A DNA stretch of 64,000 nt from Planctomycetales bacterium (lineage in GTDB: Bacteria; Planctomycetota; Planctomycetia; Pirellulales; Pirellulaceae): positions 1 through 64,000 of the forward strand of contig JAGQOY010000006.1 in the NCBI GenBank assembly GCA_020427005.1, in the 5' to 3' direction. Under the pieces are notes generated by a model. The model was not told the DNA's origin. It made no database searches and saw nothing but the letters and a program-made list of their open reading frames with translations. A program made the translations under genes and the position numbers. This document shows positions 46,511 to 57,450 of the stretch, in pieces (position 1 is the stretch's first letter; each line of letters opens with the position of its first letter).

Positions 46511-46917
46511 CAAGTGCCGGATACGAAATTGCTCGAACAGAAACTTCGTGCAGGGCCGGATCGAGCAGGACAAAACCTCGGTACCCAGTTCGAGCGTGTT
46601 AATAAAGCTGCTGGGGTAATTCCGTGGCCAAAGCTCTTCGTAAATCTGCGGTCTACACGGCGAATTGAGCTACAAGAGAAATTCCCAAGCCATGTCGTGG
46701 ACGCTTGGCTGGGGCACTCAACCAAGGTAGCAGAGAAGCGTTACCTACAAGTAACCAATGACCATTGGCAGTCAGGCCCCAGTTCTGCGACAAGCCTATT
46801 CCGTCTCCTTACTGGTCCCCTTGTCAGTAACATATCAGGGCCCATCACGATCCAGCAAAGAAATCAAGAAACCAATGTTTTGCTTGGTTCTGATGGTTCC
46901 TGCTGGCCCATGATGGA
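46511..46917 (+). pseudogene. C-terminal remnant of an older tyrosine recombinase
   Basis: NKAAGVIPWPKLFVNLRSTR, RIELQEKFPSHVVDAWLGHS, TKVAEKRYLQVTNDHW aligns with the intact integrase at 56084 (VPWPRLMQNLRATRETELLA, KYPAKDVTSWLGNS, VATKHYAMA). It keeps one catalytic Arg, the His of LGHS and the Tyr, but everything before is missing. It ends exactly at the left att repeat, in the same orientation and position as the intact integrase has to the right att. This is the end of an earlier element in the same tRNA site. Confidence 0.85.
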
Positions 46918-46941
46918 CAGCCTAATACCCCCAACAGGACT
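46918..46941 (+). other. Left attachment site of the 10.4-kb element
   Basis: The 24 bases match 57371-57394 with one mismatch (A for G at the eighth base). The shared core contains TACCCCCAACAGGACT, the antisense of the tRNA-Arg 3' end. Similarity stops abruptly on both sides. Confidence 0.92.
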
Positions 46942-47232
46942 TCGCCAGCGCAAGAAAAACAAGGGATTCTTGAACGATGGTCAGATTTTGCCCCAGAAAA
47001 TACCCCTGAGGCTGCCATCGCAGCGGATTGCATCGCCAAAACCCTTAAACCGATGGAAATACAATTCCTAGTTACTGAACTGCAGCGGAGGGGGCATGGT
47101 CAATTCTGATCGATGCTTCACTAGCGACCCACTGATCGGAATGTATAGTTGTCTCCAAGATTGCAATTTGTCACGATAGTCGGGATTACTGCTTTTAGTG
47201 CTTCAAACTATCGCCTTTTAGGGAGATCTTTT

Positions 47233-47985
47233 ATGAGATCGCTACTGATTCTGCTGTCGGCCGTATTGTGCAATGTGGCGTCTGCTGACCTGATTGATTC
47301 TGGTAATCCCAGGTTTTCTGCCGGTGGGTGGGCGTTCGAACTTCCCAATGGAGGCGTTATAAGTCAAACCATCGAATTTGCGACCACATCGGGTCCAGTC
47401 GGAACATTTGACAATCTCAACAACATAATCAATTACACGACCAGCTTTTCTACTTCTTCATCTCAAAGCGTGTCTAGATCTGACAGCATTAACTATACAA
47501 CGCAAATAAGTAATGGGTATTGGGATGCGTTTGGGTATCACCCACCGGAGATAGTTACTGACCACTATGTGTTTTTGACGACTTTGGATTTGTTAACCAT
47601 GTCGTTTGCTCCCATTCCAGCCGACGTGCCAGTATTTTCATATTCGCAACGTACGGCACAAACGGGACCAGTGCCACAAATATCAACATTCACGCTGACT
47701 GGGACATGGACTATTCAGGGACCAACGGAAACTGCAACTGGACCAATTTCTGTTACTGGTCAAATGGCATCTAATGGTGTTATTTTATTAGAAAGAAGTG
47801 CAAACGGTCCAATTACTTCGTGGTCACCACAGTTTGGTTTTTCCGGCGCGCGTGAGGCATCCGAAATGTCCGTCGTTGTTAATGGCCGAACATTTACGAT
47901 GTATGCGGTACCAGAACCGTCCATGGCGGCTTTGTACCCATTTGCTGCGATGTTTGTCTTAAGAAGAAAACGATCGCGAATGTAA
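47233..47985 (+). CDS. PEP-CTERM sorting-domain protein
   Basis: Signal peptide MRSLLILLSAVLCNVASADL; C-terminal sorting tail VPEPSMAALYPFAAMFVLRR followed by KRSRM, that is VPEP, a membrane helix and a basic end. Such proteins are exported and processed by exosortase, often to the surface. The middle is Ser/Thr-rich beta sequence. ATG 47233 has GGGAG seven bases upstream. It lies at the left end of the element beside att and may be cargo or stranded host sequence. Confidence 0.85.
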   Translation: MRSLLILLSAVLCNVASADLIDSGNPRFSAGGWAFELPNGGVISQTIEFATTSGPVGTFDNLNNIINYTTSFSTSSSQSVSRSDSINYTTQISNGYWDAFGYHPPEIVTDHYVFLTTLDLLTMSFAPIPADVPVFSYSQRTAQTGPVPQISTFTLTGTWTIQGPTETATGPISVTGQMASNGVILLERSANGPITSWSPQFGFSGAREASEMSVVVNGRTFTMYAVPEPSMAALYPFAAMFVLRRKRSRM

Positions 47986-48289
47986 CTGTTTGAATTGACC
48001 GACTACCCCCACCCGGGTTCTATGTGGGTCCTACCTTAGAATCTGTCTTCTCTGCGGTGACCGAAGAGCCCAAAAGTTAATACGAAAGTCCGTCCGGCAA
48101 TTGCGTTTGGGGAAAGGGGGCATAATTGCCTGCAAAGTATGGTTTTGATTCTTGCGTCATAGAAATACAATGGCCAGCAGGAATCTTTATCGGGTAGCAG
48201 TTTGATCCGCTGCGGCATGCCCTGAGTAGCCCAGCCTGCATTGTGGTTACTCAGTGCATGGCCCGTCCAATTTGATGCAGGAATCTAAG

Positions 48290-49723
48290 ATGTCACGGAC
48301 TAGGGACCGGGGTGCCATCGTCGCGCCCGCTGTTGATAGGCAGCAACTGTTGAGTGATTTAGTTCGGCGATCAGCTGAGTATCGGATTTACTCAGGCAAA
48401 GTGCTGCGAGACGGGGACAGTTTCAAGCTGCTGTATTATCCGAAACCAGAGGAATATCTGATTGAAGACAAACGGTTGGCCTGGAACGATGGGGTTCGAG
48501 CACTGGAACAGATTGCTCCCAGAGCTGTTAGTTACCTGCGCAGCAGAGGAGCTGAGTTGCCGGCAGCAGAAACGCCTGGGGCAAGTCTGATGGCATGGGT
48601 GCTGCGAGATTGGTTAGTCGGCATGCGAGGCAGTGCCCATTCCATCACAACCGCATTTGATGCAATCCGAGAGGCAATTCTGATGATGGATGGCAATGTA
48701 TTGGAACTTGCCACTGAACTTTACGGAAAACTACTAGACCTATCGGGATTCTTTCACAGGCTAAGCCACAGCAGATTCAATATAGCTTTCGACCCTGAAC
48801 ATTCTCCCGATACAAACCAGGCCATGCTGGAAAAATTTCAGGCTAGCTATCGGTTTGATTTTGACCATTTGAACGAAACGCTGGCTGTGCTAAATGGCGG
48901 TTGTGGAAACAAGGGTATCCGACAGCATTCAGTGCTTAGCATGCACATATTCGATACCATTGCACATCAGAGGGAACGATTGTTGCCGGCCGAAAAGAAT
49001 ACATTTGCAGACCAGGCAATCGACAGGTTTAAGACGATCAAAGGACTATACCTGCGTTTATCAGAATCGTTGTCCAAGCCGGTTTCTATTGAATCGAAAG
49101 TGGTTGAAGATATTCGCATTTGGCGAGAATTTGAATTCGATGATGACTTTAGCCAGCAAATTAAGGGGCTTCAATGGGAAGCATCTACCATTCGCATGTT
49201 GGTACACGAACGGGGAGGAATGCAGGTAGCATCGCCACAGCCAGTAGAACCACCAGCTGCCCCATCGAATCCGAGCGGCCAGCCTGAGCAGAAGCGTAAA
49301 GGTGGGAATAAAAAGAAAGGCGATCCGAGGTTCGACGTGAACATAGAATTCATCCTCAAAGCCATCCTTACAAAGCACCACAAGTACAGCGAATCCATCG
49401 TTGATGGGCACGAGGTGCATGGACTGGACCAGACCCCGCTGTCGCTGCCGGATATGATTGCTGAATTAGCAGAATCGGGACGCCAGATTGAATCAAAGGA
49501 TACGATGGGCAACTACTTAGGCAGGCTGTTGCCAGGAAAGCCCACATCCAAAATACACACCCACTATAAACGACTCTGCAAAGACACAACCGGGCTGTAC
49601 TTCTTTCTTAGAGGGTGTGCAGGAGATGTTGCAGAGTTGAAAGCGAGGACGAACCTCAGTGATGATATTGAGCGGAACCTAGGCGGCGATGATTCGGATG
49701 ATGAATTTGAGAGTGATAACTAG
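48290..49723 (+). CDS. Unknown element-encoded protein, 477 aa
   Basis: I do not recognise it. No signal or membrane segment. The first 330 residues look helical (RQQLLSDLVRRSAEYRIYSG, FDTIAHQRERLLPAEKNTFA). A Pro/Gln/Lys-rich linker near residue 335 (EPPAAPSNPSGQPEQKRKGG) leads to a C-terminal domain with a winged-helix feel (FILKAILTKHHKYSESIVDG, TMGNYLGRLLPGKPTSKIHT) and an acidic tail. AGGA lies about eight bases before ATG 48290. As the largest unknown gene of the element it is a candidate for a regulator or an accessory function such as defence. Confidence 0.6.
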   Translation: MSRTRDRGAIVAPAVDRQQLLSDLVRRSAEYRIYSGKVLRDGDSFKLLYYPKPEEYLIEDKRLAWNDGVRALEQIAPRAVSYLRSRGAELPAAETPGASLMAWVLRDWLVGMRGSAHSITTAFDAIREAILMMDGNVLELATELYGKLLDLSGFFHRLSHSRFNIAFDPEHSPDTNQAMLEKFQASYRFDFDHLNETLAVLNGGCGNKGIRQHSVLSMHIFDTIAHQRERLLPAEKNTFADQAIDRFKTIKGLYLRLSESLSKPVSIESKVVEDIRIWREFEFDDDFSQQIKGLQWEASTIRMLVHERGGMQVASPQPVEPPAAPSNPSGQPEQKRKGGNKKKGDPRFDVNIEFILKAILTKHHKYSESIVDGHEVHGLDQTPLSLPDMIAELAESGRQIESKDTMGNYLGRLLPGKPTSKIHTHYKRLCKDTTGLYFFLRGCAGDVAELKARTNLSDDIERNLGGDDSDDEFESDN

Positions 49724-49726
49724 TCT

Positions 49727-49841
49727 GTTCGGGCATTCGGGTAATAAGCCCGAACGGCAACTGCCTTTCTCACATTTTCTCAGCCTGTATTTCACTATCC
49801 GATTTTGAAAAGTTGCAACATTCGGGCATGGGCTACCCGAA
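49727..49841. repeat. Paired inverted repeats upstream of the AlpA-like gene
   Basis: GTTCGGGC/GCCCGAAC (49727-49734 and 49748-49755) and TTCGGG/CCCGAA (49821-49826 and 49836-49841) share one motif, TTCGGGYA. They lie 70-185 bases before the AlpA-like gene and could be operators or recombination-directionality sites. Confidence 0.55.
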
Positions 49842-49911
49842 CGCAGCACATAGGTATATAGCACGCAGCATAACGCTGCTGGCACTGACTCTACCTTTGT
49901 GAGGCATTTCT

Positions 49912-50136
49912 ATGGAAAAGCAGTTTGAGCTGTTTCCACCCGTTGAGCGGCTGTTGAACTACGAACAGCTGCAAGAGAAGTTAGGCGGAATCACCCGCCG
50001 AACTATCGACCGTTGGTTATCTGAAGGCATCTTTCCAGCTGGCTGTAAGGTTCTGATTTCTGGTTCGGCCAGGTTTCGCGAATCGGCAGTAGACGAATGG
50101 ATTCGGGCAGGATGCCGAGGGGCTGGTGATGAGTAA
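49912..50136 (+). CDS. AlpA/MerR-like helix-turn-helix protein
   Basis: A 74-residue protein with LLNYEQLQEKLGGITRRTID, RWLSEGIFPAG and a C-terminal ARFRESAVDEWI. This is the layout of small excisionase/AlpA-type winged-helix proteins that bind att DNA or activate the integrase. ATG 49912 follows TGAGGCATTTCT. It overlaps the next gene by eight bases, implying translational coupling. Confidence 0.82.
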   Translation: MEKQFELFPPVERLLNYEQLQEKLGGITRRTIDRWLSEGIFPAGCKVLISGSARFRESAVDEWIRAGCRGAGDE

Positions 50137-50293
50137 GCCAGGCCACACCATCTGCGACGGATGCGGGGCAACGATCACCTATGAAACGCCCTGCCAGTTG
50201 TGGTGCATGTTCTGCGGCTGGTTGGAACCCGAGCCATGCGATTGCCCAGACTGTGCGGCTGCGGCAGATGGGGATGGGCCAGTTGAAGATTAG
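50129..50293 (+). CDS. Small zinc-ribbon protein, 54 aa
   Basis: MSKPGHTICDGCGATITYET, PCQLWCMFCGWLEPEPCDCP, DC: nine Cys in 54 residues with CDGC, CMFC and CDCPDC pairs, so at least one zinc site. It starts inside the end of the AlpA-like gene (ATGAGTAA overlap), typical of a compact operon. Function unknown; small zinc proteins in mobile elements are often transcriptional co-regulators. Another frame open through 50268-50555 overlaps the next gene and is not called. Confidence 0.7.
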   Translation: MSKPGHTICDGCGATITYETPCQLWCMFCGWLEPEPCDCPDCAAAADGDGPVED

Positions 50294-50445
50294 CAACGTC
50301 TACCGCAGTAAACAGCGGACACCCAAACAGCCCAGGAAATCGAAACCGCAGGCTGTTCGTATCGAACCACTACCTGGCTGCTATTGGATGTGCGGTCACA
50401 TCCCAGCCAGTGAAAACGATTGTTCATGTTCAAGGAATGTTAGTT

Positions 50446-50889
50446 ATGAAAATCAGCCAACAATTTGCAGGCAGTTACCTGAAAGCAGCAGACCTACCAC
50501 AGCCCAGAGTATTTGCGGTTCAATCCGTTGTGATGGGCAAGATGCCAGAGGGTGATGAAAAGCCCGTTTTGAATTTTGCAGGTTCAGACCAGGCACTAGT
50601 TTTGAACAAAACGAACGCAACCATTCTGGCCGAGCTGTGGGGCGATGAAACCACAGCCTGGCATGGGCAGCTAGTGGAACTGTACGCGACTACTACGAGT
50701 TTCGGTGGTCGCATGGTTCCATGCATTCGAGTTAGGGCAGCCCAGGTGCAAACTGCTGCACGGCAGCCAGCACCAGTGCCCCAGCCATCAGCACCGCAGC
50801 CAACAGTGCCGCAGCCTACTGCCGCACCTGCCCAGCAACAGCTGCCGCTACAACCAGCACCTGCACCCGATTATCCGCTGGATGCATAG
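50446..50889 (+). CDS. Phage-type conserved protein, 147 aa
   Basis: The first 95 residues (FAGSYLKAADLPQPRVFAVQ, KPVLNFAGSDQALVLNKTNA, TILAELWGDETTAWHGQLVE, GRMVPCIRV) match a small protein common in phages and mobile elements near replication genes; I know of no assigned activity. The last 45 residues are a Pro/Gln/Ala repeat tail. ATG 50446 is internal to a longer frame from 50410 but starts the conserved part. Confidence 0.75.
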   Translation: MKISQQFAGSYLKAADLPQPRVFAVQSVVMGKMPEGDEKPVLNFAGSDQALVLNKTNATILAELWGDETTAWHGQLVELYATTTSFGGRMVPCIRVRAAQVQTAARQPAPVPQPSAPQPTVPQPTAAPAQQQLPLQPAPAPDYPLDA

Positions 50890-50892
50890 GCC

Positions 50893-51069
50893 ATGGATAT
50901 TATCGAACAGCTGGTGCTGTTTGTCGGATGGTATGCAGACCGAATGCAGCTGCCGTTGCAGCAAGCCATTCATGTGCTGCATGCCATCTACGACAGCCGT
51001 AAAGATGCTCTGCTGCCATTGGTAGAGCAATTCAAACAGGAACAGCAAGGCAGCAGCCATGCTGACTGA
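50893..51069 (+). CDS. Small helical protein, 58 aa
   Basis: MDIIEQLVLFVGWYADRMQL, PLQQAIHVLHAIYDSRKDAL, then LPLVEQFKQEQQ: an all-helical amphipathic protein. It begins three bases after the stop of the preceding gene. Composition and spacing argue for a real gene. Function unknown. Confidence 0.6.
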   Translation: MDIIEQLVLFVGWYADRMQLPLQQAIHVLHAIYDSRKDALLPLVEQFKQEQQGSSHAD

Positions 51070-51148
51070 TCCCCATTCAATGCAGCAGCCCTGGCAAGTT
51101 TTGCGACTACGGCCAGGGCTGCTGATGTTCAAGGATGTTACCGAATGA
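51059..51148 (+). CDS. Possible micro-protein, 29 aa
   Basis: MLTDPHSMQQPWQVLRLRPG, LLMFKDVTE: it starts 11 bases inside the end of the preceding gene and its stop overlaps the ATG of the primase gene (ATGA). The coupling pattern is suggestive, but the frame is short and could be chance. Confidence 0.35.
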   Translation: MLTDPHSMQQPWQVLRLRPGLLMFKDVTE

Positions 51149-53487
51149 ATTATACCCAAACTGTTACGAACTACCTAACGCATGGTTTCAACTGCCTGCC
51201 TTTGCAAGTGGATGGTAGCAAGAAACCCATCGGCAGCTGGTCCCATCTGCAAGACCGGCAACTGTCCGAACATGAAATCAAAACCTACTGGGATTCACCC
51301 ACACCGGCTGGCATCGGCATACTGGCCGGCCAGAGTAGCCACAACCTGCACATCATCGACTTTGATGCAGAGGCTGAGATTTACTTTCAGCGGTTCTGGG
51401 GTTGCCTGATGGCAAACTACCCTGAGCTGGTGAATAAGGTGCTGGCAGTTGCGACACCCAGACCAGGCAGGCAAGTATGGTTTCGGCAAGAATCAAAACC
51501 GCCGAAGTCTCAGCAGTTGGCACTGACTGAACCGCAGCCCACTGGTGAAACTGATGCAGATGGGAATGAAATACTGCTGCCAGTTATTCTGGTCGAAACC
51601 AGAGGCAGTGGCGGTTATGCAGTGGCAGTAGGTAGCCCAGCTGCGGTTCATCCAACTGGAGAACCTTACCAGTTGATTCATGGTAGCTATGAACAGCTTC
51701 CTATCATCACCGATGCAGAGGCAGACATTCTGCTGGACATTTGCAGAGGCTACACTCGCTACCAGTTGGATAACGTACAGCGGCAGCTAGGTGAACGCTA
51801 CGCAGGTGAACCCAGACCAGGTGATGTTTACAACCAGCATGCAGACATTCGGCAGCTGCTGTTAGATGCTGGCTGGAAATCACACCACTGGGAAGCAGAT
51901 ACCGAGTATCTAACGCGACCAGGTAAAGCCGTTTCAGATGGATACAGTGCAACGCTGGGCTATGTTCGCAGCGAAGACGATAAACCGCTGCTGATTGTGC
52001 ATTCGGCTGCGGCTGCACCATTCACAAAGGGCAGCTGTTACGATGCCTTTGCTGTATCGGCACTGCTTAACCATGATGGCGATTTCTCGCAGGCAGCGGC
52101 TGCGGCCAAAATTGAATACGCCCAGCAGGTGAACGCTGCCCAGGTAGGTTTTGCACAGAATCAGAGAATCGAAACCGAGCAGCAGTATCAGCCATTCCCA
52201 GTGGAGCTGCTGCCCGATGTGGTGCAGCAGTATGTGGCGGAACATTCCGCTGCTATCGGTATTGATGCTGCATTCATTGCAGTGCCGATGCTGCCCTGCC
52301 TAGCTGCACTGATTGGCAATAGTCGGCAGGCATTCATCAAACGGGGTTTCACACAGCCCAGCATCATCTGGGCGGTTACGATTGGCGATGTAAGCAGAGG
52401 CAAGACACCAGGCTGGATGGCAGGCACTGCCCCCGCTGATGCCATTGAACATAGATTACACCAATGGATGCACCAGACCAAGCAGACCTACCAGCAGCAG
52501 CTGCAAGAATTTGAACTGGGGAAACGCGAATCGAAACCGGCAAAGCCTGATACCAGCATGCAGCTGGTGGTGAATGATTTCACGATGGAAACGCTGATCG
52601 ACATTCACCAGCATAACAGTAAGCTGCTGTTGAGCATTGATGAGCTGGCCGCATGGGTCCGCAGCATGGACCAGTACCGAGCTGGCAAAGGCCGCGATTG
52701 TGAGAACTGGCTAAGCATCTACAACGGCGGCAAAATCCAAGTAAACCGCAAGACCGATGGCTACCGAGTCTACCTACCGCAGACCTGCATCAGTGTATGC
52801 GGAACCATTCAACCCGCAGTTGCCCAGGAAACCATCTTTACCGAACGCTTCATTGCGAATGGTTTTGCGGCCAGGATTCTATCAGCTTACCCACCCGCTG
52901 AGATTGTGAGCTGGTCCGATTCGGAAGTACCCCAGCAGGTAGATGATGCCATGATGCAACTGGGGCAGCGATTGTATGCCTTGGCTGGTGAACCACATGG
53001 CAGCAGCACCCGGCCGAAATTGTTACCGCTGGATGATGCAGCCCTGGTACTGTTCAAGCAGTGGATGTACGACGCAGCAGCCCATGTAGCAGAAATGCCC
53101 ATCGACCTGCAGAACGCATGGCTGAAACTGCGACCAATTGCAGCCAGATTTGCACTGGTGCATTCAGTAGTTCGGCAACTGGTACAACATCCTGATGGAA
53201 ACGCTGTGCGACCTATCGACCAGCACAGCATGCAGGCTGGCATTCAGCTGGCCTGGTGGTTCGGCCATGAGATAGAACGCAACTACAACGTAGGCAGCAG
53301 CCCAGATGACTTACAAAGCCATTTCAAATGGATACTGGCCAAGCATCCAATTGGGATTGATGCTCGAGGATTGCTAACAGGCAGATGGTCAATCAAGACC
53401 GCAGCAGAGGCCAGACAAGTGATTCAGCAACTGCTTGAACAGGGTTTCGGCAGGCTGGATGGTTCCATCTTCATTCCCCACAAATAA
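51145..53487 (+). CDS. Prim-Pol / DUF3987 replication protein
   Basis: Residues about 8-215 are a bifunctional primase-polymerase domain (GFNCLPLQVDGSKKPIGSWS, HIIDFDAEAEI with the metal-binding Asp pair, VETRGSGGYAVAVGSPAAVH, PTGEPYQ). Residues about 350-640 are DUF3987, a helicase-like domain with a P-loop-like GDVSRGKT at about 413-420, DELAAWVRSMDQY and a TERFIANGFAARIL segment. It probably primes and helps unwind the element DNA. It precedes the polymerase gene by 171 bases that hold an origin-like repeat region. Confidence 0.87.
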   Translation: MNYTQTVTNYLTHGFNCLPLQVDGSKKPIGSWSHLQDRQLSEHEIKTYWDSPTPAGIGILAGQSSHNLHIIDFDAEAEIYFQRFWGCLMANYPELVNKVLAVATPRPGRQVWFRQESKPPKSQQLALTEPQPTGETDADGNEILLPVILVETRGSGGYAVAVGSPAAVHPTGEPYQLIHGSYEQLPIITDAEADILLDICRGYTRYQLDNVQRQLGERYAGEPRPGDVYNQHADIRQLLLDAGWKSHHWEADTEYLTRPGKAVSDGYSATLGYVRSEDDKPLLIVHSAAAAPFTKGSCYDAFAVSALLNHDGDFSQAAAAAKIEYAQQVNAAQVGFAQNQRIETEQQYQPFPVELLPDVVQQYVAEHSAAIGIDAAFIAVPMLPCLAALIGNSRQAFIKRGFTQPSIIWAVTIGDVSRGKTPGWMAGTAPADAIEHRLHQWMHQTKQTYQQQLQEFELGKRESKPAKPDTSMQLVVNDFTMETLIDIHQHNSKLLLSIDELAAWVRSMDQYRAGKGRDCENWLSIYNGGKIQVNRKTDGYRVYLPQTCISVCGTIQPAVAQETIFTERFIANGFAARILSAYPPAEIVSWSDSEVPQQVDDAMMQLGQRLYALAGEPHGSSTRPKLLPLDDAALVLFKQWMYDAAAHVAEMPIDLQNAWLKLRPIAARFALVHSVVRQLVQHPDGNAVRPIDQHSMQAGIQLAWWFGHEIERNYNVGSSPDDLQSHFKWILAKHPIGIDARGLLTGRWSIKTAAEARQVIQQLLEQGFGRLDGSIFIPHK

Positions 53488-53490
53488 CAG

Positions 53491-53642
53491 TCTCAGCACC
53501 TCAGCAAATCTGCACCTCAGCAACAGTTGAGACATTACAGGACAGTATCTCGCAGGCATTTTGGCAGGCTAGGTAGACTACGATGCAAAGTCTCAATATG
53601 TCCTAACGCTTGCAGAGTTGCTAAGCTGCTGAGGTGCTGAGA
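53491..53642. repeat. Candidate replication origin: iterons and inverted repeats
   Basis: TCTCAGCACCTCAGCA (53491-53506) and its exact complement (53627-53642) bound the gap between the Prim-Pol and polymerase genes. The 10-mer CACCTCAGCA occurs twice directly (near 53497 and 53513) and once inverted. Inside, TTGAGAC/GTCTCAA (53527-53533, 53590-53596) and AGGACA/TGTCCT (53539-53544, 53599-53604) are further inverted pairs. Repeats of this density beside replication genes are typical of an origin; a regulatory role is the alternative. Confidence 0.65.
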
Positions 53643-53658
53643 ATAGGATTTTGCACCC

Positions 53659-55809
53659 ATGGAAACGACTATCGGAAATCAGGACTACACCTGGCAGCAC
53701 TGGGATGGGCAGCAGTTGGGCAAGTATGTAGCCATCGACACCGAAACCACATTGATAACTGGGCACCGCATACCGCAGCTATGCCTGGCAAGTTGTAGCG
53801 ATGGGCAGCAGCATTTCATTATCCACCCAGACCAGCTGGGCAGTTTCCTGAACCAGCATCTGCCCAGTGGTAGCCATTTAATCATGCACAATGCTGCATT
53901 CGATTTTTGGGTTTTGGATAAGCACCTGGCGAGCAGCGGTGGCGATGATGCACGCAGTTGGATGTGGTCAACAGTGGATGGTGGTAGGTTTCACGATACG
54001 ATGCTGCTGCATGCACTGGTAACGCTAGCCCAGAGCGATGATGACACCATGCACAGCCTAGCAGAGCTGGCCAGCAAGCTGCTGGGGATTCAGTTGGACA
54101 AGGATTCCTACCGAACTCGATATGCTGAAACCATCGGCCAGGACTGGCAGCAGTTGGATGTGGGTTTCTTTCAGTACGCAGTTACTGATGCCATCGTTAC
54201 CTGGCAGTTATTCTGCAAACTGACGCACCAGGCCAGCAGCATCTGCCAGCATCACAATCTGAACCGCAGCTACGGGTTTCTGACTGAACGGTTACAAGTG
54301 CAGGCAGCTATCAGCCTGGCCGCGATTACTCGCAATGGAATGCATGTAGACCTGGACCGAGCTGCCCAGTTGCAACAGCGGATAGATGCGGGAATCAAGC
54401 AAGAAGTGGAAACCATGCAGCAGATTGATGCAGGGCTATGGCACACCTACGTTAAAAATGGATTGTTCAAAACGAACAAGGAAACTGGCCTGCCCAAGAT
54501 GAACCAGAAACGGCTGCTAGAACATCTGCAACGCATTGCTGATGAGCACCAGTTGAAAGTGCCATTGACGGCTACGGGGCAGATTTCAAGCAGTGTGAAC
54601 GAATGCTGGACCCAGTACACCGAGTTGCACCCTCTGATAGCTGCCTATTGCACTTACACCGAGCTAACCAAACTGCGAACATTCTTTGCCGCTTTGGATA
54701 AGCCTACCATTCACCCCACATACCGAACCCTAGTTAGGTCAGGCCGCACCAGTTGCAGCGGTCCGAACATTCAGCAGCTGCCTGCACGCAGCCCCATACG
54801 CGATGCCATTACAGCAAAGCCAGGGCATCTGCTTTTCATCATCGACTACAACGCATTGGAGCTGCGAACGCTGGCCGCAGTATGTTATGAGCGAATCGGA
54901 TTCAGCAGACTGCGGGATGTCCTAATAGATGGCACTGATCCGCACAGCTACGCTGCTGCCATGTTTGCTGGTATCGACTTGGCTGCATTTGAGCAGCTAC
55001 CGAATAAGAAACAGCTACGGCAGCAGGCTAAGGTATTCAATTTTGGATTGCCTGCAGGTTTTGGTGCTGCTGCCCTGGTGGATCATGCCAAGTTTGCCTA
55101 CGGGGTAACGATAACGCAGGCAGAGGCTGAACAATTCATTGAACAGCTAACCAGGCAAGTCTACCCAGAGTTGCAGCTGTATCTGGCCGAAGATACTGCC
55201 AGCATCGTAGCCCAGATTTTGCAGGCTGATGTAGTGCAGATTCGAGCTACCTGGCCGCAGCAGTACCACATGGGGCTGCTACGCAGATTGCTGGCCGGCC
55301 ACCAATGCAAACGCGATGGAACACCCTACCAGCAACGCACGATTGATACTGCTTGGCAGCAGCTGGAAACCCTTTGTAGAAACCCACACCTGCTGCCATT
55401 CATTCAGCGGGGTGATACTTCCGAATCATCACCGCTACGCAGATTGTTTAATTCGACTGTGAGCACAACCACTGGCCGCATGCGAGGTGGCGTACCATTC
55501 ACCGCAGCCAGGAATGCACCATTCCAAGGACTGGCCGCAGATGGCTGCAAGTCTGCCATGTGGAACCTAACCAGGGCTGGTTACCGAGTAGTGGCATTCA
55601 TTCACGATGAGTTTATTATCGAATTGAACAAACTGGACGACATAGACCGAGCATCGGCAGAGATACCGAGTATCTGCCAGCAGAGCATGCGGCCATTCGT
55701 TCCTGGCATACCAGTTCCAGTTGAATTTGCCCTAACCCACCGCTGGGATAAGGCAGCCCATGCAGTTTGGAGCGAACAGGGGCAGTTGCTGGAATGGGCT
55801 ACTGCTTGA
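53659..55809 (+). CDS. Family A DNA polymerase with 3'-5' exonuclease
   Basis: The N-terminal exonuclease has IDTETTL (residues 26-32) and LIMHNAAFDFWVLD (near 75). The polymerase has SGRTSCSGPNIQQLPARSPI, motif A FIIDYNALELRTLA (near 394), motif B KKQLRQQAKVFNFGLPAGFG (near 450) and motif C AFIHDEFIIEL (near 646). At 716 residues it is phage-like: no 5' nuclease domain. All catalytic Asp and Lys/Tyr-region residues appear present. It should copy the element, possibly with the Prim-Pol as primer source. Confidence 0.93.
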   Translation: METTIGNQDYTWQHWDGQQLGKYVAIDTETTLITGHRIPQLCLASCSDGQQHFIIHPDQLGSFLNQHLPSGSHLIMHNAAFDFWVLDKHLASSGGDDARSWMWSTVDGGRFHDTMLLHALVTLAQSDDDTMHSLAELASKLLGIQLDKDSYRTRYAETIGQDWQQLDVGFFQYAVTDAIVTWQLFCKLTHQASSICQHHNLNRSYGFLTERLQVQAAISLAAITRNGMHVDLDRAAQLQQRIDAGIKQEVETMQQIDAGLWHTYVKNGLFKTNKETGLPKMNQKRLLEHLQRIADEHQLKVPLTATGQISSSVNECWTQYTELHPLIAAYCTYTELTKLRTFFAALDKPTIHPTYRTLVRSGRTSCSGPNIQQLPARSPIRDAITAKPGHLLFIIDYNALELRTLAAVCYERIGFSRLRDVLIDGTDPHSYAAAMFAGIDLAAFEQLPNKKQLRQQAKVFNFGLPAGFGAAALVDHAKFAYGVTITQAEAEQFIEQLTRQVYPELQLYLAEDTASIVAQILQADVVQIRATWPQQYHMGLLRRLLAGHQCKRDGTPYQQRTIDTAWQQLETLCRNPHLLPFIQRGDTSESSPLRRLFNSTVSTTTGRMRGGVPFTAARNAPFQGLAADGCKSAMWNLTRAGYRVVAFIHDEFIIELNKLDDIDRASAEIPSICQQSMRPFVPGIPVPVEFALTHRWDKAAHAVWSEQGQLLEWATA

Positions 55810-55861
55810 AATGCAATCGCGGCTTGATTATCATTCGGATAACTTATCAGAGAGATATACA

Positions 55862-56083
55862 ATGGCTAAGCGGAAACATCAGAAAAAGCCGATGACGATT
55901 CAGCAGCAGCTGCTTGCCCACATTCAAGCATCAGGCATGACACAGAGACAAATTGCCGAGCTGGCAGGAATGCCTGAGAGCAATGTAAGCAGTTTTATAT
56001 CTGGCAAACGGGGCATTAGCTTGAAATCCCTGAACAGCATATGCATTGGTTTGGAATTGGATCTGATTAAGAGGGGCAGCTAA
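55862..56083 (+). CDS. XRE-family helix-turn-helix regulator
   Basis: 73 residues: a basic start (MAKRKHQKKPM), then the HTH LLAHIQASGMTQRQIAELAG, MPESNVSSFISGKRGISLKS. It abuts the integrase gene with stop and start adjacent (TAAATG), so the two are co-expressed. It is a candidate repressor controlling excision and replication. The ATG 55862 begins the family match; an open frame upstream overlaps the polymerase gene. Confidence 0.85.
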   Translation: MAKRKHQKKPMTIQQQLLAHIQASGMTQRQIAELAGMPESNVSSFISGKRGISLKSLNSICIGLELDLIKRGS

Positions 56084-57409
56084 ATGGCAACTGTTCGCAG
56101 ACGCGAAAACGGTTCAATTGAAATCCGATTCATTGACCACAACGGCAAACGCAAAAGCCTATACCCCGGCCAGGTGGCACTGCGGGATGGTGAAAGCATG
56201 GCAGCCAAAGTAGAGCACATCGTTAGCCGCAAGGTGCAGGCATCCAGCCCTGATGTAGCTGTTGCCCATTGGATTGCTGGGTTATCCGATAAGCTGCACA
56301 GCAAGCTGGTGAAACTCGACCTAGTACCAGCAAGGGAACCATCGGAACCGCAGGCAGAACTGGCCGCAGCAGATGCAGTGCAGATGCCTACCATTAAGCA
56401 TTGGACTAATAGTTACATCGAACAGCACCCAGGCAAGGAACGCACCATTCTGAATCTGAAACAGTCCGCGAAAAACCTTTGCACATATTTCAAGCCAGAT
56501 AAGGCACTGGATTCATTCACTGCTGGTGATGCTGAGCGGTTCCGCAAGTGGCTGCAAGGCAAAGGGCTAGCCGAAAACACAGTCAGATGCAGGATTCGCA
56601 GGGCTAAGCAGTTTTTCAACGCAGCCATGAAAGATGAACTGTTAGAGCGGAACCCATTCGCGGCTGAGAAATCAGTTGTGGGCGGCAACGATAGCCGGCT
56701 GTTCATGGTTCCTGCGGAATGGATTGAAACCCTTATCAGGAAAGCCCCCTGCGAGGATTGGCGAATTATCCTAGCCTTTGCCCGCTACGCTGGGATGCGA
56801 GCACATGAATGCTGCATGCAACGCTGGGAAGATATCGACCTGGCAAATAATCGCATGGTGATACGCAGCAACAAAACCCCACCTATCCGCAGCTGCCCGA
56901 TATTCCCAGAGCTGCGGCCACACCTTTTGCGAGCTAGGGAAATGGCACCAACCGGGGCTGAGTATGTGCAGACCCGATACAGCCCTGATAGCAACCTGAG
57001 AACTACACTTCTGAAAATCATCACCGCTGCTAAGCTAGTGCCCTGGCCGCGATTAATGCAGAATCTACGAGCAACCAGAGAAACTGAGCTGTTAGCCAAG
57101 TACCCAGCCAAGGATGTGACCAGTTGGTTAGGCAACAGCCCATCAGTTGCTACCAAGCATTATGCAATGGCTACTCAGGAATCGTTCATCAGAGCAACGC
57201 AAGATGGGGCAAACCTGCCAGGAATAACTTGTGGCGTAGATTCCAAAAGTACCCCAAAAAGTACCCCACACATTGCAGGAATTGATGAGAAATGGCAGGA
57301 CACGAAAAAAGCCATAGTGAAAAACCCCAGGGAAATCTGGCATTTTCTCGCTATGGCTTTGGCTGACTCGCAGCCTAGTACCCCCAACAGGACTCGAACC
57401 TGTGACTAG
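56084..57409 (+). CDS. Tyrosine recombinase (integrase) of the element
   Basis: Catalytic residues: Arg239 in AGMRAHECC, Arg329 in NLRATRETEL (Asn327 where many enzymes have His), Asn351 in WLGNS where His or Trp is usual, and Tyr360 in TKHYAM. The SAM-like core-binding domain is at about 110-200 (KHWTNSYIEQHPGKERTILN). The last codons cross the att core and end inside the antisense of tRNA-Arg (PSTPNRTRTCD), so the C-terminus in this form comes from host sequence. In the excised circle the same frame would continue 55 codons into 46942-47109. It integrates the element at the tRNA. Confidence 0.93.
   Translation: MATVRRRENGSIEIRFIDHNGKRKSLYPGQVALRDGESMAAKVEHIVSRKVQASSPDVAVAHWIAGLSDKLHSKLVKLDLVPAREPSEPQAELAAADAVQMPTIKHWTNSYIEQHPGKERTILNLKQSAKNLCTYFKPDKALDSFTAGDAERFRKWLQGKGLAENTVRCRIRRAKQFFNAAMKDELLERNPFAAEKSVVGGNDSRLFMVPAEWIETLIRKAPCEDWRIILAFARYAGMRAHECCMQRWEDIDLANNRMVIRSNKTPPIRSCPIFPELRPHLLRAREMAPTGAEYVQTRYSPDSNLRTTLLKIITAAKLVPWPRLMQNLRATRETELLAKYPAKDVTSWLGNSPSVATKHYAMATQESFIRATQDGANLPGITCGVDSKSTPKSTPHIAGIDEKWQDTKKAIVKNPREIWHFLAMALADSQPSTPNRTRTCD
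57371..57394 (+). other. Right attachment site of the element
   Basis: Partner of 46918-46941, one mismatch in 24. It covers the last bases of the integrase frame and the 3' end of tRNA-Arg, including the acceptor and part of the T-arm, so integration keeps the tRNA whole. Confidence 0.92.
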
Positions 57410-57450
57410 GCTTTAGGAAAGCCTTGTTATATCCACTTAACTATGGGGGC
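57379..57450 (-). tRNA. tRNA-Arg(CCU)
   Basis: A complete cloverleaf on the minus strand: acceptor GCCCCCA/TGGGGGT (first pair G-T), linker TA, D-arm GTTA/TAAC, anticodon arm AGGCT/AGCCT with loop TTCCTAA (anticodon CCT), T-arm ACAGG/CCTGT with loop TTCGAGT, discriminator A. CCA is not encoded. Its 3' end is the element's integration target. In contrast to the 36-38 kb array, this tRNA is fully canonical. Confidence 0.97.

Follow-up and report, generated by a model that had tools for sequence, protein, structure and literature searches.

The integrase gene (int) of an integrated element in a Planctomycetales bacterium very probably contains the attachment site of the element (attP) and, as judged from sequence comparisons, integration would exchange the C-terminal tail of the enzyme for a few tRNA-coded residues, leaving the catalytic residues intact. 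The element is located in a window of 64,000 nucleotides (contig JAGQOY010000006.1), which is the whole stretch of DNA analysed. The complete explanation, in which attP lies within int, a helical hairpin is swapped at integration and the two resulting forms of the enzyme favour different reactions, is given a probability of about 0.65. Its functional part, in which integration uses the hairpin as a contact and the truncated enzyme depends on an excisionase, is more tentative and stands somewhat below even odds.

The integrated element and the displaced end of its integrase gene

The element extends from core to core at positions 46926-57394, has a length of about 10.5 kb and is bounded on each side by an exact 16-nt direct repeat (TACCCCCAACAGGACT), with 10453 bp separating the two copies. 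The left copy is located at 46926-46941 (forward strand), and the right copy, at 57379-57394 (forward strand), lies within both int and the 3' end of a tRNA-Arg(CCT) gene (57378-57450, reverse strand, detected with ARAGORN), which is the attB gene. If one mismatch is allowed, the match extends to about 24 nt (CAGCCTARTACCCCCAACAGGACT). A search with CCCCCAACAGGACT, allowing up to three mismatches, shows a sole second copy at 46928-46941, and no third core copy was found within the window. Directly left of the left core there is a remnant of an older integrase (46544-46774, forward strand; E 1e-11, 43% identity), which corresponds to a catalytic C-terminus and crosses the left core in a different frame (PPTGL). 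This remnant is probably the trace of an earlier, different element at the same tRNA gene.

Between its ends, the element contains replication genes (51145-55806) encoding a Prim-Pol/DUF3987 protein as well as a family A DNA polymerase that has an exonuclease domain. These genes are common to the related element L041 (57-64% identity), which shares the primase, polymerase and HTH genes with the window element. A gene at 49912-50133 (forward strand) encodes an HTH_17 protein that is a candidate excisionase (RDF), with matches to Pfam HTH_17 (3e-7) and to a PHROG excisionase (2.4e-8). The window element shows no recognised capsid gene and is therefore possibly a satellite or an integrative plasmid. 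At the left end, an ORF at 47233-47982 has the look of a PEP-CTERM exported protein (VPEPS...RRKRSRM) and is possibly cargo or a host gene.

The tyrosine integrase is encoded at 56084-57409 (forward strand) and its prophage form, which is the truncated one, has 441 amino acids. It shows matches to Pfam Phage_int_SAM_5 (9e-12), to Phage_integrase (3.5e-5, just below the cutoff of this family) and to a PHROG integrase (3.6e-28). In an alignment with 22 relatives, the R, K, R, W and Y columns are invariant and the catalytic tyrosine corresponds to residue 360, about 70 residues upstream of the core. Every catalytic residue is upstream of the att core, including Tyr 360, and the truncated Int therefore need not be inactive. 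The 3' end of the gene reads CAG CCT AGT ACC CCC AAC AGG ACT, which contains the core, followed by CGA ACC TGT GAC TAG. Thus, int enters the tRNA gene in antisense and its last four codons past the core, encoding R T C D, are derived from the host tRNA gene, as the sequence-only reading of this DNA had proposed when it described a frame that crosses the att core and stops after four host codons.

The displaced 3' end of int is located at 46942-47109 (forward strand) and would join the gene only in the circle. When the int frame is carried across the joined core, it stays open for 55 codons from 46942 up to a TGA at 47107-47109, and the stop-free continuation described in that reading is present at its full length. 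The two alternative frames past the left core are open for 42 and 9 codons, so that in the window the length of the tail alone is weak evidence. However, against an HMM of the tails of L041-L044 the window tail scores 13.1 bits, a value equalled by none of 2000 shuffles, and by this homology it is a member of a divergent branch with them. Its post-arm part (47020-47106, forward strand), which by position and by homology to the modelled tail of L221 is the counterpart of a predicted helical hairpin, is not exceptional under the general tail HMM once trimmed (rank 25 of 100). A genome search with the 55-residue tail by itself shows only matches with E > 0.02 beyond the self-match, which is attributed to the tail being too short and diverged. 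An assignment of the 55 codons to the older integrase was rejected because the frame of the remnant across the core is a different one (PPTGL) and because the P'-arm repeat matches the P arm of the new element.

The core of the window element is flanked by putative arm sites. The P arm (57245-57267, forward strand) is within int and shows two copies of AAAAGTACCCC, 12 bp apart, which encode STPKSTP. The P'-arm repeat, GAAAATACCCC, is within the tail at 46996-47006 (forward strand), 54 nt past the core, and matches the P arm at 9 of 11 positions (shuffle p 0.0045); the window element shows one diverged copy on the right and two copies on the left. In L041, the relative with the shared backbone, AAAAGTACCCC is found on both arms. 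Of 41 related elements, 37 show direct repeats spaced 12 bp in the left arm and 31 show them in the right arm, typically 105-160 bp to the left of the core and about 36-75 bp to the right. The two sides of a core have a mean of 8.7 9-mers in common, about tenfold the 0.84 of mixed pairs. Since the 12-bp step corresponds to four codons, the repeats are translated as doubled tetrapeptides, such as STPKSTP and GGAESGA. From their sequence and arrangement they are likely arm-binding sites for Int and, because they flank the core on both sides, the entire attP is coding sequence.

Joined elements and uninterrupted genes in relatives

In the GTDB family of the window, 164 of 199 genomes have a match to the integrase family, and across the phylum 161 of 392 sampled genomes have one; the named relatives that carry it include Rhodopirellula, Rubripirellula and other Planctomycetota. 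Outside these genomes, a plasmid search with the window Int shows a single distant match, in Deinococcus, and a search of a phage collection shows zero matches. Seventy-nine named integrases have a complete ORF: 63 of them stop within or just past an antisense tRNA gene, with nine isotypes represented, five stop shortly before the tRNA gene and 11 have no antisense tRNA gene near the stop. The antisense tRNA explains odd integrase C-termini such as ...PPRGVEPL or ...GIRTR.

For the in-silico joints, 20-60 kb around the integrases was taken, the second copy of the core was located and the int frame was read over the joint. The joined set contains 45 related elements of 2.9-26 kb at tRNA genes of 10 isotypes. 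These elements are related and not fully independent, although the integrases in the alignment of relatives are only 31-62% identical to that of the window and their tRNA targets differ. A comparison of the three frames was used as the null for the extension length, random positions of the elements being unsuitable since they sample coding frames. In 44 of the 45 elements, int can be read into the core without a stop. The extension has at least 40 codons in 42 of these 44 and is the longest of the three frames in 37 (p 5e-12). The two exceptions, L086 and L094, show tails of one and eight codons, respectively, keep the arm repeats on both sides and look like losses of the trait. In L090 the core repeat has 57 nt, from the tRNA end into int, a far longer duplication than in the other elements.

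Viral contigs contain the same gene in an uninterrupted form. In L202, L209/L212, L213, L220/L221, L225/L232 and L230 the int ORF continues into a tail and no tRNA gene is present. A tail HMM made solely from the in-silico joints detects these full-length ORFs with a best E of 2e-15, the exception being L230 (E 3.6, not significant), whose tail is recognised by its arms and layout. As the HMM contains in-silico joints only, the viral full-length ORFs are an independent confirmation. The arms match in the full-length ORFs of L202, L209, L221, L225 and L230. Between the arms, L202 and L225 show 21 nt of the 3' ends of tRNA-Glu and tRNA-Val, respectively, whereas controls show 12 nt or fewer; L221 shows a 14-nt tRNA stretch, and no tRNA match was found between the arms of L209, L213 and L230. 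The integrases of L219, which is located at a tRNA-Ser gene, and L221, which has the tail, are 79% identical and the two proteins diverge exactly at GIRT in the core. Circular permutation was tested in the L220/L221 contigs and not found, the viral contigs being linear fragments.

In-frame joints and uninterrupted viral ORFs together bear out, at the level of sequence, the proposal of a longer integrase in the circular form that integration cuts short. The further suggestion of the sequence-only reading, that the truncation may bias the reaction or silence excision, is more tentative. The sequence-only reading would have been undermined if the segment past the core were never fused to an integrase, or if related integrases all ended at the core. 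Fused homologues are found in L202, L209/L212, L213, L220/L221 and L225/L232, and not all related integrases simply end at the core. A different kind of fusion is observed at L197:9959-11461 (L197/L062), where an integrase is joined in frame to the tail of the neighbouring element and the arms do not match. This locus is a probable tandem junction with a natural hybrid Int, and the mismatch of its arms is expected if the tail comes from the neighbouring element.

The C-terminal tail and its possible role

The tail family was compared by leave-one-out HMMs. Of 39 in-frame tails, 34 score above all 99 shuffles and 38 above both other frames, and after removal of the first 26 residues, which are coded by the arm, 28 of the 39 tails are still above all shuffles. 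The tails share a pattern of two helices joined by a short turn, the first helix containing a tryptophan (consensus DPDLAELVAAWPSLSDAVRADLLALARAL). For the post-arm part, pN/pS was compared in four pairs of relatives (L041/L042, L041/L043, L042/L043 and L059/L158); it is 0.45 in frame, whereas the shifted frames give 0.99 and 2.48. These comparisons argue that the tails are homologous and under constraint at the protein level.

The AlphaFold model of the full-length Int of L221 shows a beta-sheet N-terminal domain, made up of three strands plus one helix (residues 3-52, pLDDT >92), followed by core-binding and catalytic domains, a disordered stretch at 379-460 corresponding to attP and a helical hairpin at 461-491 (pLDDT about 66-82). 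The nearest solved folds are lambda Int (1z1b) and Tn1549 Int. As in lambda and Tn916/Tn1549-type integrases, the predicted architecture contains arm-binding-like N-terminal, core-binding and catalytic domains, and the arm repeats lie on both sides of the core. The lambda attP is outside the int frame; in contrast, that of the window element is inside it. According to the model, the part lost on integration would be the helical hairpin that follows the attP-coded linker, all the catalytic residues being retained.

The sequences show that attP, consisting of two P-arm repeats, a tRNA-derived core and a P'-arm repeat, lies wholly inside the frame of a lambda-type tyrosine integrase. In the circle, int would encode putative arm-binding, core-binding and catalytic domains, then a disordered linker read from attP and, as its last part, the helical hairpin. 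When the element enters tRNA-Arg, the P' arm and the codons of the hairpin end up at its opposite end, and the integrated int ends in a few antisense tRNA codons. The prophage Int therefore lacks the hairpin and keeps its complete set of catalytic residues, and the full gene would be regained by precise excision. In the proposed mechanism, the hairpin may act as a protein-protein contact, between Int molecules or with a partner, for the integrative synapsis, and this role in integration is a best guess. The two forms of Int would favour different reactions, with the prophage form needing the RDF for excision, and the switch would be encoded in the gene through recombination itself.

Alternatively, the tail could be a functionless overprint, in which the arms must adjoin int, stops are avoided by chance and the ORF ends at the first stop. 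The two elements that keep their arms though the frame closes at once (L086 and L094) fit this explanation, and so do the short and variable length of the tails and two Phycisphaerae-type pairs with short tails that show dN ~ dS. However, it is unlikely: the post-arm part is conserved as protein, shows purifying selection in the int frame only and is predicted to form the hairpin described above, and neutral frames of 40-80 codons at saturated synonymous divergence would not last in 42 of 44 elements.

Integration might also inactivate the integrase in the suicidal manner of SSV-type elements, excision then depending on an intact Int supplied by a further copy or by a newly arriving element. 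Integration does change the int gene, and tandem or neighbouring copies are seen, as shown by the older int remnant of the window and the hybrid full-length int of L197/L062. But the SSV-type cut removes the catalytic domain (PMC8371274), whereas the catalytic residues, the invariant tyrosine included, here remain on the N-terminal side, which makes inactivation quite improbable. As a third explanation, the tail could be a stability or degradation signal that makes the Int of the free element short-lived and is removed by integration, with the genetic layout of gp33 of mycobacteriophage BPs (PMC4557955). This is rather more doubtful, since there is no common ssrA-like ending among the 42 tail C-termini and conservation falls on an internal hairpin and not on the last residues of the tail. 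That the open frame of 55 codons arose by chance, as the neighbouring frames of the window alone might allow, is already refuted for practical purposes by an arrangement repeated in dozens of relatives, by its uninterrupted form in viral contigs and by the homology of the window tail to those of L041-L044.

Comparison with known systems

The closest precedent of the hairpin-swapping integrase is found in the Myxococcus phages Mx8 and Mx9 (int/intX), for which the original studies (Tojo 1996, Magrini 1999, Julien 2003) are taken through a review (PMC6070905). As summarised there, attP is within int, integration changes the C-terminus and the specificity of the enzyme, and the integrated-form Int has altered properties and is not inactivated, which was termed a molecular switch. 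Like Mx8, the planctomycete elements have the att core inside int, with a frame that would be open beyond the core in the unintegrated form, and integration would swap the C-terminus for a short host-coded one (RTCD in the window element, and the 63 named integrases that stop in or just past a tRNA gene). Unlike Mx8, the planctomycete trait is phylum-wide and uses many tRNA targets, the core is between 12-bp spaced repeats that are within the ORF on both sides, and the part lost is a conserved, predicted helical hairpin; the likeness to Mx8 described here is one of gene layout. What sets the planctomycete case apart is its spread across the phylum, with the two arms and a conserved hairpin all encoded in the int frame.

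In SSV-type archaeal integrases the gene also spans attP and is cut on integration, which splits the catalytic domain from the N-terminus (PMC8371274); in the window element the catalytic residues, with Tyr 360 about 70 residues before the core, are kept with the N-terminus. In BPs, attP is inside the repressor gene (gp33) and integration removes a C-terminal ssrA-like tag (PMC4557955). Integration strips C-terminal residues and would alter the state of the protein in both cases, but the planctomycete gene is int, not a repressor gene, and no ssrA-like tag is seen. The Islander program allows integrases extending over attP, citing Mx8 and SSV (PMC4383910). Among open-access papers, no literature on a self-truncating int in planctomycetes was found. 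A review of archaeal recombinases describes self-disrupting integrases as exclusive to archaea (PMC8371274), and the bacterial cases contradict this view.

The directionality of lambda-type integrases is usually attributed to the excisionase. In the elements described here, recombination would itself alter the enzyme, reversibly and predictably, across a phylum and at many tRNA genes, and the rare case of Mx8 gains a broad comparative footing. A wider proposal is that Planctomycetota elements and phages share an integration-state switch, in which a hairpin encoded past attP, and only in unintegrated DNA, sets the direction of Int, and in which tandem insertions give hybrid integrases with the hairpin of the neighbour; this is a tentative extension that could fail slightly more easily than hold. 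Two natural forms of one enzyme, one hairpin apart, provide a ready test of the switch, and L086 and L094, which keep the arms and have lost the frame, are useful natural controls. If the switch reading is true, recombination would rewrite its own catalyst in each cycle of integration and excision.
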